A stretch of 41,737 nt of DNA from an uncultured Granulosicoccaceae bacterium (GTDB taxonomy: Bacteria > Pseudomonadota > Gammaproteobacteria > Granulosicoccales > Granulosicoccaceae), in assembly GCA_937951345.1 (NCBI GenBank), contig CALFCF010000028.1:1-41737 (forward strand). The letters are read 5' to 3'. Position 1 is the stretch's first letter. Every line of letters starts with the position of its first letter. The translations under genes and the position numbers were made by a program. Shown here in pieces: positions 4,935 through 41,737 of the stretch. The notes beneath the pieces were generated by a model. That model was not told where the DNA came from. It did no database searches and saw only the letters and a list, made by a program, of their open reading frames with translations.

Positions 4935-5240
4935 CTAAGGCTGCAAAGATGAGAAATACGCTGCCAGATTGTCTATGTCGGTATCACTGAGCCCTTCGGC
5001 CATGCCGTACATTATTACAGCTTGTCCGCCGGTACGCGATTTGTTGCGAAAGTTAATCAACTGACGTTTCAGATATTCCAAATCCTGACCGGCCAGACTG
5101 GGGAATCCCGGGGCGACAGACTTGCCGTTCATTCCATGGCAACCTGCACAAACGGTAGCTCCTGCTTTACCTATATCAATATCGCCTGCTAAAGTCGGGA
5201 GTGATACAAGTAGCGTCAGAGCGATGAATATATATTTCAT
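4935..5240 (-). CDS. Periplasmic c-type cytochrome (class I, c553-like)
   Basis: The product is a small electron carrier of 101 aa. A signal peptide spans roughly residues 1-18 (MKYIFIALTLLVSLPTLA), and a single haem-attachment motif CAGCH follows at residues 31-35. The segment MNGKSVAPGFPSLAGQ is typical of the c553/c4-type small cytochromes, and a Met within the later VIMYGMAEGLS stretch is the likely distal haem ligand. The in-frame extension to 5291 is rejected because it would bury the signal peptide. The protein is monocistronic in this window. Its redox partners cannot be inferred from its neighbours. Confidence 0.88.
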   Translation of the reverse strand: MKYIFIALTLLVSLPTLAGDIDIGKAGATVCAGCHGMNGKSVAPGFPSLAGQDLEYLKRQLINFRNKSRTGGQAVIMYGMAEGLSDTDIDNLAAYFSSLQP

Positions 5241-5359
5241 GTGTTTTCGCCATTTTTGATGATGTGCCAATAGGCAGCAAAAACCGTGCACCTAGCCTGC
5301 TCCGGATGTTGTACATGTCCAGGACATAGCACATAACACGGAAGACAATTAATACATTC

Positions 5360-5388
5360 TTGTGTAAGTATTCTTTTTTGAATAATTC
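5360..5388 (+). promoter_or_regulatory. Possible sigma70 promoter for the GNAT gene
   Basis: TTGTGT at 5360-5365 and TAATTC at 5383-5388 are separated by exactly 17 bases and lie 19 bp ahead of the ATG at 5407. The match to the TTGACA/TATAAT consensus is only partial, so this is a tentative call. Confidence 0.3.
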
Positions 5389-5406
5389 CGTTGGGCATCG
5401 TGTCCT

Positions 5407-5874
5407 ATGTCAAACAGTCCTTTAACGATCAGACCGGCAACAAAAGAAGATGTTGATACTGTCGTCAGACTGATCAATGCGGGCGGACCGGACGGCAGGC
5501 AACGCCGGAATCTACCGGACATATTGCCTGCAGGATTCCACGAGGCGTTTCAAACCATAGATTCAGACGTCAATCAGCATTTGCTGATAGCTGAACTGGA
5601 CGGACAAATTGTAGGCACCTTCCAGATAGCCTATTTGACTTATTTATCTGGCGAAAATCGCCCGGACGCGCAGATCGAGGCGATCCATGTCAAGGCTGAA
5701 TACCGGGGCAAAGGTATCGGTACTGAGATGTTGCGGTGGGTTATCGAAGAATCCAAGAAGCGACATTGTCGTCGCATTCAGCTAACTAGCGACAAGCTAC
5801 GGACAGAAGCTCATGATTTCTACCGACGGATGGGTTTCTGTATCAGTCATGAAGGTATGAAGCTTTATCTGTAG
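5407..5874 (+). CDS. GNAT-family N-acetyltransferase
   Basis: This is a 155-aa single-domain acetyltransferase that would transfer an acetyl group from acetyl-CoA to an unknown amine. The N-terminus LTIRPATKEDVDTVVRLI is the usual first strand and helix. The acetyl-CoA pyrophosphate loop is RGKGIGT at residues 100-106, preceded by the motif A strand IEAIHVK. The ending DFYRRMGFCIS is the characteristic motif B. The length is normal. The gene is isolated, divergent from the cytochrome gene with a 166-bp gap that could hold both promoters. The substrate is not predictable from the sequence. Confidence 0.88.
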   Translation: MSNSPLTIRPATKEDVDTVVRLINAGGPDGRQRRNLPDILPAGFHEAFQTIDSDVNQHLLIAELDGQIVGTFQIAYLTYLSGENRPDAQIEAIHVKAEYRGKGIGTEMLRWVIEESKKRHCRRIQLTSDKLRTEAHDFYRRMGFCISHEGMKLYL

Positions 5875-6482
5875 CCTTGTCCGGCCACTCCTGTCCCATG
5901 CTGACAGACTGACTGTACAGTAAAAATAGTCAGAGAAGGTGCTCGGTAACAGCGTCCGAATTGCATTTGCTGAGCTGATTAGGAGTATCTGGATACGGAG
6001 TTACTGGATACAAAGCGAATGATGTTATTTGTAATGTTGAGATATGCAACTTTCCGCTATGCGCTTTGTCTTAACTCTAATCTGCGCGCATGCGTGTCGA
6101 TGCTGCCTGTTAATGCGTACTAGCTTGCTTATTAGCTACTGTGTTACTGGCTACTGTGTTTTGCCGAATCGGAAAACCCATACCAATCTGTACTGCCTTG
6201 CACTGCGCTACCAGTTACTACGCTAACTGTTCGGGCCGAACATCCAGTACATTACAGTGGGATTGATCTTTTTACGTTTGCTGGTTCTTTGTTGATGACT
6301 CGACTACTGCAGACTATTGCAGTAAGCAACGTTGCAGTGAACATCGTGCGATTGCCGGAGTTAAGCGGGAACTGCATTGTCTGCTGGTTCTTCCGGTATC
6401 GATCTGATCTTGGATAAACTGTTGTACCACCTTCTCAAAAATTTCTACTCAGCTTAAGTTGAATATTAAGGAGTTCTTTAAA
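5875..6482. other. Non-coding gap, about 600 bp, with short repeats
   Basis: A 60-codon frame at 6044-6226 has no ribosome-binding site or domain and is not accepted. The region contains short direct repeats, such as two copies of GCTACTGTGTT near 6136 and 6152, and two of CTGGATAC near 5990-6010, giving it a low-complexity look. The last bases carry the AAGGAG ribosome-binding site of the next gene at 6468-6473. Confidence 0.4.
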
Positions 6483-9507: not shown

Positions 9508-12141
9508 TCAGGCGCTATTTGCTTGATTTGTTAAACGGATTACTGTTGGCTTTAAGGCAACCAGAACCGCATGCTGGAGTGCAGCGGGTAGTAGTTTCTG
9601 TAATTCAGTTACTAGATGGTTCAAACCGGGTTCAGGCTCAAGTTTATCGTTGTTAAACGTAATCAGCGAAGCGTTCTCTAAGGATTCAATAAGCATTTCG
9701 AAATAGGACTTACTATAGAGTGTAGCTGGCTCTCTTAATTCAGTCATAGCATATCGCGTTGCGGCTGCTTTGTATTCATTCTGAAAAGTGTCTTTCGAAA
9801 CAGCGCTATCGAGTTGTGTAATGATTGAGGTCGCCAAATAGTAACGCTCAAGTGTCGGGGTTAACAGGCGCGCCAACCGGTCAAAACAAACGGAAGTATG
9901 GCTTCCAGCACTTGTGCGTTGCAGTGAACTATCTTCATTCTTGTATACCAATCCGACTTTAAGCATCGCATCAATGTTGTTGCGCGCTGCATCCAGTTTA
10001 TCTTTTTCATCGAGGAAATACTCCGCACGGAATAATGGCCACATATTGCTGACCAACTGCTCCAGGTCAGTAAATGTTTTTTGGTAATCCTGGCGCAGAG
10101 CACACGCTATTAACGACGACATGCAATACAGGTGAGCAATATTGTTACGAAAGTAGTTCAGAGGCGCCGTCTGGCGTACGGTCGCTTTTAAAAATTCTTC
10201 GCCGTTCTGTGTTTCCTGGGTGATATGTCCGAGTTTTTGTGCCCGATCCATCCACTCAGAAGGCTCAAAAGCAGGCAATTGAACCAGTGTCTCTGCATAT
10301 AATCGTTGTATTAAACGATAATTGATTTCCAGTTGCTGCATGAGGTCATCGCGAGCGAGTGCTTTTCCCGGACTAGACAAGATCACCAAAGCAACCAGTG
10401 AAACGGGAGTGACACTGGTAGCCGAATTAATACCGGCCAGAATCTCATGCCCCAGAGAAGAGACACATTCTCGGTACCTGTCGCTAGAGTACAACTCAGG
10501 CGAAGCAGGTTCATTATGGAGTGCAAAGCGCTGAAGTAACGATTTAAGAGCGATTGGTTGTCCAATATTTACATGTACATTGCCATACGATTCTCTTAAC
10601 ACGCCCAGGGCTTTGATCAAGCCAAAAAGCGATTCACGACGTTTAGATTTTCCTGCAAGCTCATGAGTAAATGCGCGTCCTTCAAGTAATCGTTCATAAC
10701 CAAAGTATACCGGTACGAAGTATACGGGACGTTGCGGATCACTCAAGTATGCTTGTATTGTCATTGAGAGCATGCCTGGTTTGGCTGGTATTAAATATCC
10801 GGTGCGACTTCGTCCGCCTTCTACGAAATATTCGAGTGGATATCCACGCTGCAATAGCTCTTTCAGGTAAGTGTTAAAGACCGCTGAGTAGATTCGATCT
10901 CCGGCAAAAGATCGTCGAATAAAAAACGCACCACCGCGACGAAGTATGCCACCGACGATTGGCAGGTTTAGGTTAATGCCCGCAGCTATATGCGGTAGCG
11001 AATAGCCGTTTACATAAAGAATGTAAGACAATAGCAAATAATCGATGTGGGAACGATGGCAGGGGACATAAACAATCTCTGCATTTTCAACGACGGCATC
11101 CAGACGATTCAAACCGTGTAGCTTTACGCCGTCATACAATGAATTCCATAACTTCTTAAGCACTTTATGCAAAAGACGAACAGTCCTGTAGGACATATCT
11201 GCTGCAATTTCATTCGCCGAATCCGTGGCATTTTCGCTAAGTAAGGCAACACTTTTTCCATTTATACTTGATTCGTTTGTTATCGCTGTTCTGACCGTCG
11301 GGTCGTTGACAACATGCTGTAACAGCATGCGCCGGTGCGACAAGTCAGGTCCAAGTGTCGCTCGTCGTCGCCTTCTGAAGTGTATACGCAAAATACGCAA
11401 CAACTTGCGTTCCAAAACGCTACTCGTTGCCTGTTCATTTATAAATTCTTGGAGTGATATTGGTTCACTGAAACGAAGAAGGGTATTCCTACCGTGAATC
11501 AGGCACATGAAAAACTTTCGTGTATGTCCTGCAAGCTCCCAATATTCTGAGAAATAGATTTTCCAGAAAGAATCCTCTTTGTCAGGCGCTTGTCCCCAGT
11601 AAACCGAAACTGGCACGATTAGGCAGTTTTTTTGTTCATTTGTAGGTGCATCCGATGCATTTGAATGATCAGTGCTAGTTGCTGTGTTTCGTGCGATTTG
11701 GATTATCTTACCGAATGAATTGGTGGGTCTGAACCCTCGTTTTTTAAATAGTCTGCTTTGTTGCTTTTTTAAATAAACCACTGAGGTAGGGAATTGCGTA
11801 TTCCCGAAGGAGAAATGCTTGTCTGGAAGCTGTAGGTTATTATTCTTGCATGCTATATCTAATGCGATACGATCAGTTCTGCTGTGAGTTTCCAGTACAT
11901 AAAGTATATGGGGATTACGGTCAGGGACAGATTTCGTTTGGAATAATGATGACGGATTATCCGGGACAACCGTGGGCTCGATTGTTTTGGATAATAGCTT
12001 GTTTATCAGCGAAGACACCTGCTCAATATCGAATAAAAGATTGTTGCCAATTAATTGTCTTTTTAAGGTATAGATACTGCCGTTAGTAAAATCGTAATTT
12101 CTGTCCGATACCCATTGATTTTGCTTTCTCAAGCATGGCAT
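9508..12141 (-). CDS. plsB: Glycerol-3-phosphate 1-O-acyltransferase
   Basis: PlsB makes lysophosphatidate from glycerol-3-phosphate and acyl-ACP or acyl-CoA at the inner membrane, the first step of phospholipid synthesis. The catalytic HX4D motif is His362-Asp367 in CHRSHIDYLLL. The second block is GGAFFIRRSF (403-412) and the third is FVEGGRSRTG (439-448), all classic for PlsB. At 877 aa it is about 70 residues longer than the E. coli enzyme, mostly at the N-terminus, whose first 70 residues look unconserved. The start is uncertain. The ATG at 12141 lies inside the upstream gene (59-bp overlap) with GGGA almost touching it, and a TTG three codons on is better spaced. The gene is coupled to a cyclodeaminase-family gene upstream and to a hydroxylase gene downstream. 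Confidence 0.93.
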   Translation of the reverse strand: MPCLRKQNQWVSDRNYDFTNGSIYTLKRQLIGNNLLFDIEQVSSLINKLLSKTIEPTVVPDNPSSLFQTKSVPDRNPHILYVLETHSRTDRIALDIACKNNNLQLPDKHFSFGNTQFPTSVVYLKKQQSRLFKKRGFRPTNSFGKIIQIARNTATSTDHSNASDAPTNEQKNCLIVPVSVYWGQAPDKEDSFWKIYFSEYWELAGHTRKFFMCLIHGRNTLLRFSEPISLQEFINEQATSSVLERKLLRILRIHFRRRRRATLGPDLSHRRMLLQHVVNDPTVRTAITNESSINGKSVALLSENATDSANEIAADMSYRTVRLLHKVLKKLWNSLYDGVKLHGLNRLDAVVENAEIVYVPCHRSHIDYLLLSYILYVNGYSLPHIAAGINLNLPIVGGILRRGGAFFIRRSFAGDRIYSAVFNTYLKELLQRGYPLEYFVEGGRSRTGYLIPAKPGMLSMTIQAYLSDPQRPVYFVPVYFGYERLLEGRAFTHELAGKSKRRESLFGLIKALGVLRESYGNVHVNIGQPIALKSLLQRFALHNEPASPELYSSDRYRECVSSLGHEILAGINSATSVTPVSLVALVILSSPGKALARDDLMQQLEINYRLIQRLYAETLVQLPAFEPSEWMDRAQKLGHITQETQNGEEFLKATVRQTAPLNYFRNNIAHLYCMSSLIACALRQDYQKTFTDLEQLVSNMWPLFRAEYFLDEKDKLDAARNNIDAMLKVGLVYKNEDSSLQRTSAGSHTSVCFDRLARLLTPTLERYYLATSIITQLDSAVSKDTFQNEYKAAATRYAMTELREPATLYSKSYFEMLIESLENASLITFNNDKLEPEPGLNHLVTELQKLLPAALQHAVLVALKPTVIRLTNQANSA

Positions 12142-39631: not shown

Positions 39632-40857
39632 TGTACATAGCAGACAGCTCTGAGGTTAAAGAAACAGCTGAAACAACAAAACGCCATGCGGTTATTGTTG
39701 GTGGAGGTATAGCTGGACTTGCAACTGCTATCTGCCTGTCGCTAAAAAACTGGCGAGTAAGCATTTATGAACAGTCCCCCGCGTTTGAAGAGATCGGTGC
39801 GGGTGTTCAGATCAGTCCTAACGGTAGCCGTATACTTGAACGCATAGGCGTTCTTGAACGTATAGCAGACAGTTGCTTTGAGCCCATCGCGCTGGAAATG
39901 CGTCACGGTCGTTCGAACCGTCGTTTGTTGTATTTGCCGATGGGAGATCAAGCAATCAAGCGTTGGCAGGGACAGTATTTGCAGGTTTATCGACCGGATC
40001 TGATTCGTGCACTGCTGGATGTGTTGGAAAGCACAGAAGATGTGGCGATACACAACGGTGTCCGTGTTTCGCACTACGGTCACGACGCAAGCGGTGCAAC
40101 GGTTATGCTTGATAAGGACGAACAGGTCGATGCAGATTTGCTGGTGGCGGCTGACGGGGTGCATTCAACGATCAGGCAGCAGATGACGGGGGACGACAAA
40201 GCACGGTTTACCGGCAACGTAGCCTGGCGTGCACTGGTTCCGGTTGAGCAATTACGTAACCCGCCACCGCTTTCTGCCTGTGTCTGGACCGGTGAAGGTA
40301 AGCATGCGGTAACGACCCGTGTTCGCGGAGGTGAGTGGGTTAATTTTGTCGGCATCGTTGAGCAGGACGACTGGCACGTCGAAGGTTGGCGTGAAAAGGG
40401 TAGTTCAAGCGAAGCACTTCAGGATTTCGGCAACTGGAACGACAGTATTACCGACATTATTCAAGTATCAGGCGATCTGTATCGCTGGGCATTGCTTGAC
40501 AGGCCACCCTTGCCGAAGTGGTCTGACAAAGCCGCGGTACTGATCGGAGACGCCGCCCATGCCATGCTGCCTTCGATGGCGCAGGGCGCGGTTCAGTGCA
40601 TTGAAGATGCCTGGGTACTGGCTGATTGCCATCAGAGAAACCCGGATGCCATAAGCGCCAATCAGGACTTCTATCGCCAACGTATCGAACGCACCCGGCG
40701 TATACAAAAGCAATCTGCAGACAATTTACGCCTTTTCCATAAACGCGGGTTTCTCAGCCAGGTGGCATGCTATGCACCGATCTGGCTTGCCGGTAAGTTA
40801 CTCCCCGGAGCTGTGTATAGGCGCAACGACTGGGTTTATGGTCAAGGTCCGCTGTAG
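39631..40857 (+). CDS. FAD-dependent monooxygenase (salicylate hydroxylase-like)
   Basis: The 408-aa flavoprotein belongs to the aromatic-ring hydroxylase class (PF01494). The dinucleotide motif is VIVGGGIAGLATAICL near the N-terminus. GAGVQISPNGSRILE follows, then VAADGVHSTIRQQM (the DG motif) and LIGDAAHAMLPSMAQGAVQC (the GD motif). It would hydroxylate an aromatic or cyclic substrate using NAD(P)H and oxygen; the substrate is not known. The ATG at 39631 overlaps the dacB stop by one base (TGATG), so its translation is coupled to dacB despite the unrelated roles. An in-frame GTG one codon earlier is also possible. Confidence 0.9.
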   Translation: MYIADSSEVKETAETTKRHAVIVGGGIAGLATAICLSLKNWRVSIYEQSPAFEEIGAGVQISPNGSRILERIGVLERIADSCFEPIALEMRHGRSNRRLLYLPMGDQAIKRWQGQYLQVYRPDLIRALLDVLESTEDVAIHNGVRVSHYGHDASGATVMLDKDEQVDADLLVAADGVHSTIRQQMTGDDKARFTGNVAWRALVPVEQLRNPPPLSACVWTGEGKHAVTTRVRGGEWVNFVGIVEQDDWHVEGWREKGSSSEALQDFGNWNDSITDIIQVSGDLYRWALLDRPPLPKWSDKAAVLIGDAAHAMLPSMAQGAVQCIEDAWVLADCHQRNPDAISANQDFYRQRIERTRRIQKQSADNLRLFHKRGFLSQVACYAPIWLAGKLLPGAVYRRNDWVYGQGPL

Positions 40858-40992
40858 CCCGTTCTAGCCCGCTGTAGCCAACACGCCATAAACGCTTTAG
40901 GCATATAGCCTGTGGATATATACCGCAAGCTGTCTCGCGGATAATTCAGATGTGGCACCAAAAATACTTTCAATACACGACCCGGTACAGGC

Positions 40993-40998
40993 TATAAT
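40993..40998 (+). promoter_or_regulatory. -10 box of the tRNA-Arg gene
   Basis: A perfect TATAAT lies 8 bases before the mature 5' end of the tRNA. The hexamer 17 bases upstream is poor, but a consensus -10 so close to a tRNA gene is a good sign of its own promoter. Confidence 0.55.
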
Positions 40999-41006
40999 TC
41001 TGATGT

Positions 41007-41083
41007 GCGCCCGTAGCTCAGCTGGATAGAGTACCTGGCTTCGAACCAGGTGGTCGGAGGTTCGAGTCCTTCCGGGCGCGCCA
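41007..41083 (+). tRNA. tRNA-Arg (anticodon UCG)
   Basis: The 77-base gene folds as a full cloverleaf. The acceptor arms GCGCCCG and CGGGCGC pair over seven bases, with discriminator G and an encoded CCA. The D arm is TAGCTCAGCTGGATAGAG. The anticodon arm is CCTGG-CTTCGAA-CCAGG with anticodon TCG, reading CGA as arginine. The T loop is GTTCGAGTC. It is the only RNA gene in the window, and the AT-rich accessory-looking sequence begins right after it, as expected for an integration site. Confidence 0.96.
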
Positions 41084-41111
41084 TTTTTCAAGCACTTGAG
41101 AAATTAGCAAG

Positions 41112-41146
41112 CTGTCCCCTGTCCCCTGTCCCCGGTCCCCGGTCCC
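41112..41146. repeat. Tandem 7-bp repeat, five units
   Basis: Three CTGTCCC units are followed by two CGGTCCC units without interruption, and one more CTGTCCC appears at 41158. It starts 29 bases after the tRNA. Such short C-rich tandems can vary in copy number by slippage. Confidence 0.85.
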
Positions 41147-41220
41147 ATTGGCTCGATCTGTCCCAAAGAGCGCCTTCCGCGGACTACCCGTTTTCTTTTG
41201 TTTTGCGAATACTGAGCAGA

Positions 41221-41737
41221 ATGAAGATAACTATACCCGAACCCATCGATAGATGATTTGCATAAGCGCGAGAATGGCGACACGTTTGGCTATCTATCCC
41301 TGTCGGAATCTCTTACCGATGTAATAACTTCAGTGAATCAACTACCTTGTAGTTGGTTGATCAAACAGGTGGGGTGAAGGTAAAACAACATTTTTAAAAA
41401 TGTGGGAGCATTCGTTATCGACTCAGAATATTCCTTGTATTTATATAGATGCTTTTCAGTTTGAAGTAACTGAAGATCCATTTTTTCCACTTTGTAGTAA
41501 CATCGGCGAACTTATTCCAACAGACAAAAAAGCGAACTATGAGGAGCTAGCTATTGCTTTCGATCTGACTCTCAGGGATCTTCAAATAGGCTTGATAAAT
41601 TTCGCATTCGTTGTTAACACTTACCAAAATGCCCCGCGAGAATTTCTAGAAATTGCGGCAACTATCGCAATTTTCTATGTCTTAGATAAAAACACCAGGG
41701 AAAAATTAGTAGATGCAAATTCATTCCTAGATTATCA
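41221..41737 (+). pseudogene. KAP-family P-loop NTPase, frameshifted and cut by the window end
   Basis: The protein is spread over three reading frames. From ATG 41221 the frame reads MKITIPEPID and soon stops. From 41252, in the next frame, it continues DDLHKRENGDTFGYLSLSES and TDVITSVNQ. From 41367, in the third frame, it reads RWGEGKTTFLKMWEHS, then IPCIYIDAFQFEVTEDPFFP, and stays open to the end of the window. The order MKITxPEP, FGxxL..L, WGEGKTTFLKMW (Walker A) and YIDAF...DPF is that of KAP NTPases, predicted membrane-linked ATPases that include the phage-exclusion protein PifA. At least two net shifts, and probably two single-base deletions around 41345-41366, break the frame. The C-terminal half lies outside the window. 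Confidence 0.75.

Follow-up and report, generated by a model that had tools for sequence, protein, structure and literature searches.

A degenerate KAP-family NTPase gene beside a tRNA-Arg gene in a Granulosicoccaceae genome: probable remnant of an integron cassette

The window analysed here is the whole of contig C28 (41,737 bases) from the draft genome of an uncultured Granulosicoccaceae bacterium (4.49 Mb in 115 contigs, 95.5% complete), and its right-hand end raises a question about origin. An initial annotation had read a broken KAP-family NTPase gene there, shortly after a tRNA-Arg gene, and had taken it for the possible remnant or edge of a defence or mobile island that extends to the right. 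How did this gene come to stand beside the tRNA, and what kind of element, if any, carried it? We examined the gene itself, its continuation beyond the contig, the DNA on either side, and the occurrence of related genes in other genomes.

The N-terminus of a KAP-family P-loop NTPase (PF07693) lies at window positions 41221-41737, spread over three forward frames, and all the pieces that had been said to spell a KAP start are present. Segment 1 (41221-41256, forward strand, frame of 41221) provides a start codon and MKITIPEPIDR before a TGA at 41254-41256; KAP homologues begin comparably with MKI or MKL..P. Segment 2 (41249-41347, forward strand), which reads IDDLHKRENGDTFGYLSLSESLTDVITSVNQLP and aligns with homologues, is shifted by +1 relative to segment 1, in the frame of 41222, which starts at about 41249 and runs to a stop at 41375-41377. 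Segment 3 (41361-41737, forward strand), in the frame of 41223, has a TGA immediately upstream at 41358-41360 and stays open from 41361 to the window end. It reads RWGEGKTTFLKMW...IDAF...EDPF, with RWGEGKTTFLKMWEHSLSTQNIPCIYIDAFQFEVTEDPFFPL as its share of the KAP N-terminus, a Walker A motif (RWGEGKTTF) from 41367 onward, and a C-terminal KAP part that begins at about 41535 (YEELAIAF...).

A search of the joined translation against PF07693, which had been proposed as a check on the annotation, bore out the family assignment. The read-through translation matched at E=5.1e-12 (46.1 bits) and the Walker A frame by itself at E=4.9e-9 (36.3 bits), with a curated cutoff of 20 bits. A profile built from 75 homologues gave 78.7 bits to the N-terminal part of the gene and aligned segment 3 at profile positions 17-103 and then at 306-401, of 447. 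This was the sole KAP gene found in the host genome. Any KAP match was seen in 14 of 48 genomes of the host family and in none of the same-genus genomes searched, while the viral contigs searched contained no relatives and the plasmid search returned only partial matches of less than 60% identity.

The gene does not appear to end with the contig. Window positions 41614-41737 recur as the first 124 bases of contig C2 of the same genome (12,388 bases; locus L007) with one mismatch, which sits near the edge of the overlap; the last 119 bases are exact. The KAP frame stays open across the overlapping bases and closes with a TAG at L007:276-278. From about 41535 onward, the tail that crosses the junction matches the C-terminal region of KAP proteins (residues 301-406 of 438 in the homologue at locus L147, E=9e-7), and its profile score of 15.4 bits compares with a maximum of 14.7 among 2000 shuffles. 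Contigs C108 and C6 likewise overlap by exactly 141 bases at their ends (the left end of C108), so that end overlaps are a property of this assembly. The join between C28 and C2 is thus supported by overlap, frame and homology, rather than by reads. The placement of a KAP gene at the window end was accordingly right for the N-terminus, to which a continuation on C2 and a large internal deletion have to be added.

Two further details of the setting were as annotated. The tRNA-Arg gene (anticodon TCG; 41007-41083, forward strand; called by ARAGORN and matching Rfam RF00005) is intact and ends 138 bases before the KAP start codon at 41221, and the stretch is AT-rich, with a GC content of about 0.39 at 41200-41599, compared with values of 0.43-0.57 over the 5 kb before it. 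Short tandem GTCCCCT/GTCCCCG repeats lie between the tRNA and the KAP start, at 41110-41150. On C2, the KAP gene is followed by a ccdA-like antitoxin ORF (L007:398-700; RHH_1 2.1e-8, CcdA 2.7e-6) and ccdB (L007:712-1026; PF01845, E=7.5e-24), which we assign to a ccdAB toxin-antitoxin pair on the basis of the CcdB profile match and the RHH antitoxin upstream. Catabolic genes begin with an aldehyde dehydrogenase (L007:1346-2878) and continue with a glyoxalase-family dioxygenase, an FAA hydrolase, an ABC transporter and an AMP-binding ligase, and GC content in this region is back to about 0.5. The ORF list of C2 (12.4 kb) contains no integrase, the listed integron-type integrase matches being on other contigs, and a search of C2 for a repeat of the tRNA 3' end gave 0 matches with up to 3 mismatches. 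Given these results, the foreign stretch would be about 1.7 kb long.

These observations bear directly on the suggestion that the locus is what remains of a genomic or defence island targeted to the tRNA, with its integrase and further genes either lost or located further away. The start of an AT-rich KAP gene only 138 bases past an intact tRNA-Arg, with ccdAB adjoining, is in keeping with such an island; however, the 12.4 kb of C2 hold neither an integrase ORF nor a copy of the tRNA 3' end, the AT-rich part gives way after about 1.7 kb to ordinary catabolic genes, and an integron attC site, described below, accounts for mobility without the tRNA. We therefore regard a tRNA-targeting island as improbable. 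The rightward extension recommended earlier showed neither an integrase nor a repeat of the tRNA 3' end on C2, and the KAP gene is followed there by ccdAB and then by catabolic and transporter genes. Because the mobile signature is an attC site, the tRNA is probably just a neighbour of the KAP locus.

Comparison with relatives returned no empty site, as the tRNA stretch matched their DNA only within the tRNA itself. In the same-genus genome G002, the tRNA stands at a contig end beside ABC-transporter genes that are found 8 kb into C2 in the host, and gene order has therefore changed. On contig C46, 33 bases match the tRNA 3' end; we do not take them for an att remnant, since they seem to belong to another tRNA, one interrupted by a group I intron. 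That tRNA (G000:C46 near 10012-10044; L006:1501-1810), of which the 3' half is visible and which ARAGORN did not call, is an observation in its own right; it has an apparent group I intron (RF00028, 76.7 bits) and lies between a HipA-like and an HNH-like gene.

The attC site occupies L007:208-306 (that is, C2:208-306) on the forward strand, the strand of the KAP gene, and the 3' end of the gene runs into it. Bases 222-305 of C2 share 78-87% identity over 84 bases with sites in three genomes of the host family, all of which have a full R''. The aligned sites form a hairpin, bounded by RYYYAAC on one side and GTTRRRY on the other, in which many pairs are compensated. In the C2 site the R' core is perfect (GTTAGGC), while the R'' core has decayed to ATTTATTAG where relatives have ACCTAAC and no longer fits RYYYAAC. 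Because R'' is not intact, we read the site as a decayed attC and the locus as a putative cassette remnant rather than a working cassette. The degenerate R'' also explains why a simple R''/R' finder missed the site, which was detected by covariance models. The first of these (R1), which included sites found via the C2 site and is tuned to the sites of the host family, scored it at 56.6 bits; the second (R2), built only from sites found independently of it, gave 38.8 bits and E=2.7e-6 over the whole genome, the top match in that genome.

Only one clear attC was found at the locus. Upstream of the KAP start (window 40800-41737) there was no significant match, so the 5' cassette junction was not found, and no attC was found after ccdB on C2. 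Remnants of the CALIN type consist of attC sites without an integrase (PMC12444791). The present locus resembles these and chromosomal integron cassettes in that a gene is followed by a same-strand attC ending in GTTAGGC while a broken integrase lies elsewhere in the genome, but a CALIN needs at least two attC sites, and here there is one clear site and no recognisable upstream boundary. A junction between two cassettes would be expected to show a perfect R' core, as this one does, and ccdAB may thus plausibly be a following cassette that has lost its attC; Vibrio chromosomal integrons are known to carry ccd cassettes (PMC8876359). We go no further than this for ccdAB, since no attC follows ccdB and its relatives in G380 and G388 showed no attC match. 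Two further places in the genome hold weak attC candidates, which may be cassette remnants as well: one beside GNAT acetyltransferase genes (G000:C42:12084-12186, L121) and one beside an HNH endonuclease gene (G000:C14:57028-57130, L120).

Integrons are widespread in the host family: 25 of 48 genomes have an integron integrase that passes the TIGR02249 cutoff, and 21 of the 48 have attC matches. The only recognisable integron integrase of the host is itself broken (G000:C108:143-896, locus L105): it falls into two overlapping frames and lacks profile positions 138-212. An integrase on contig C155 of the same-genus genome G002 is likewise split. Further afield, an attC accompanied the KAP gene at 1 of 80 loci fetched from a public genome collection, a count obtained with model R1 and its tuning to the sites of the host family. 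This locus (L147) belongs to a MAG of the methanotrophic symbiont of Bathymodiolus brooksi, and its KAP gene (5001-6317), of the PDC-S20 type, is the best match to the C-terminal part of the window's gene. On its 5' side an attC ends 24 bases before the KAP ATG; on its 3' side a weaker-scoring site starts about 10 bases past the stop and ends in GTTAGGC, within a series of same-strand sites. Flanked by attC on both sides, it has the structure of an intact integron cassette. Within the host family, the genome G401 carries a more distant KAP gene amid an array that counts eight attC sites and a ninth, weak one. That array (G401:C1:6995000-7014999, locus L122) also contains an IS3-like transposase pair and looks like a well-preserved segment of a chromosomal integron. 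On the evidence of these two loci, KAP genes do occur as integron cassettes.

The main features that speak against a cassette at the window's own locus are the single clear attC with its degenerate R'', the lack of sites upstream and after ccdB, and the fact that most close KAP relatives are not known as cassettes (1 of 80 with attC). They would suit a KAP gene that was an ordinary part of the chromosome and decayed where it stood, with a hairpin that resembles attC by coincidence and is a terminator or some other repeat. Against this, the site fits a structure-based model drawn from unrelated cassettes of the host family, it sits at the 3' end of the gene and on the strand that a cassette would require, the C-terminal part finds its best match in a cassette, and KAP genes are few in the host family, with no second copy in the host genome. 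Decay in place of a resident gene is thus an unlikely account, on a par with the island.

Whatever its route, the gene is heavily damaged. Intact homologues are about 450 aa long, of which the window's gene retains positions 1-103 and about 306-425. A central block of roughly 200 residues is missing, and with it the Walker B region, which reads IIDELDRC in homologues, so that profile positions 104-305 are without counterpart, and at least two frame breaks occur near the 5' end, upstream of Walker A. No intact nucleotide-binding domain can be made, and hence no present function is expected; judged by its sequence, the locus is a true pseudogene, related to KAP NTPases by descent and non-functional as an enzyme. 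It is very unlikely that the breaks are assembly or sequencing errors in a gene that is intact in the organism, even in a MAG-like draft of 115 contigs and so close to a contig end, because the loss of about 200 codons is more than an indel error could produce, and elsewhere in the window the long ORFs run without interruption.

We consider it likely, with good confidence, that the locus is a pseudogene of a KAP protein of about 450 aa and of the PDC-S20 type that arrived as an integron cassette and then decayed. The KAP gene and its attC would have reached the chromosome by integron recombination, either as a member of an array that has since disappeared or on its own at a secondary (attG-like) site; according to the passages of PMC12444791 and PMC11023631 that cite Loot et al. 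(2024), integron cassettes do insert at secondary attG-like sites. The cassette would now lie between the tRNA-Arg and the ccdAB pair. A broken host integrase would leave such a cassette stranded, after which the KAP gene may have decayed.

We also compared the gene with known and candidate defence systems. The best defence-library match of the window fragment (PADLOC) was PDC-S20, a single-gene phage-defence candidate with a KAP NTPase, at E=1.5e-17; the match is strong yet partial, with its best stretch at 47-106 of 464. PDC-S20 was also the best match of the intact relatives (E=3e-99 and 5e-102), compared with which the host copy lacks about 200 central residues, Walker B included, and has frame breaks; the defence role of PDC-S20 is itself a candidate annotation, and no paper naming PDC-S20 turned up in the literature searched. 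The phage-exclusion protein PifA and QatA, the KAP ATPase of the Qat system, share the P-loop superfamily with the host KAP, and the intact relatives match them remotely (3e-19 to 8e-23 for PifA; 3e-10 to 1e-14 for QatA). The window fragment, in contrast, had no PifA match in the defence-library search and only a weak match to QatA (0.012), and no Qat partner genes were recognised on C2. The comparison with PifA made in the initial annotation thus stands at the level of the superfamily, through the remote match of intact relatives, and does not extend to the fragment itself. As far as family membership can tell, the intact ancestor was presumably an ATP-dependent NTPase with an antiviral role. 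Of the earlier interpretation as a whole, the decayed KAP gene, the mobile context and the link to a phage-defence candidate remain, while the tRNA-integrated island to the right does not.

Several elements of this picture are already known, namely decaying integrons, cassette-borne defence genes (PMC12409362) and KAP defence candidates. Vibrio chromosomal integrons carry cassette-borne phage-defence genes and have been reviewed as reservoirs of small defence genes (PMC12409362); the present case shares the idea of cassettes as a defence-gene reservoir, but the gene is dead, its defence role is that of a candidate, and the bacterial family is a different one. The link between KAP proteins of the PDC-S20 type and integron cassettes is a modest addition. 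No paper stating it was found in the literature searched, which is no proof that none exists.

A broader reading is more speculative, and we hold it as doubtful: integrons of the host family and of methanotrophic mussel symbionts may spread KAP-type single-gene defence NTPases, and the present locus may be a solitary cassette that came to lie beside a tRNA outside any array, perhaps at an attG-like site, and that was left stranded and destroyed upon integrase loss in the genus. In itself, the window's copy is an ordinary, dead pseudogene, and the intact cassette of the Bathymodiolus symbiont is the copy of interest. Together with its relatives, the locus suggests that KAP-type NTPases, which are poorly understood defence candidates, travel as integron cassettes. 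Such cassettes fit recent descriptions in which integrons act as a reservoir for small defence genes.
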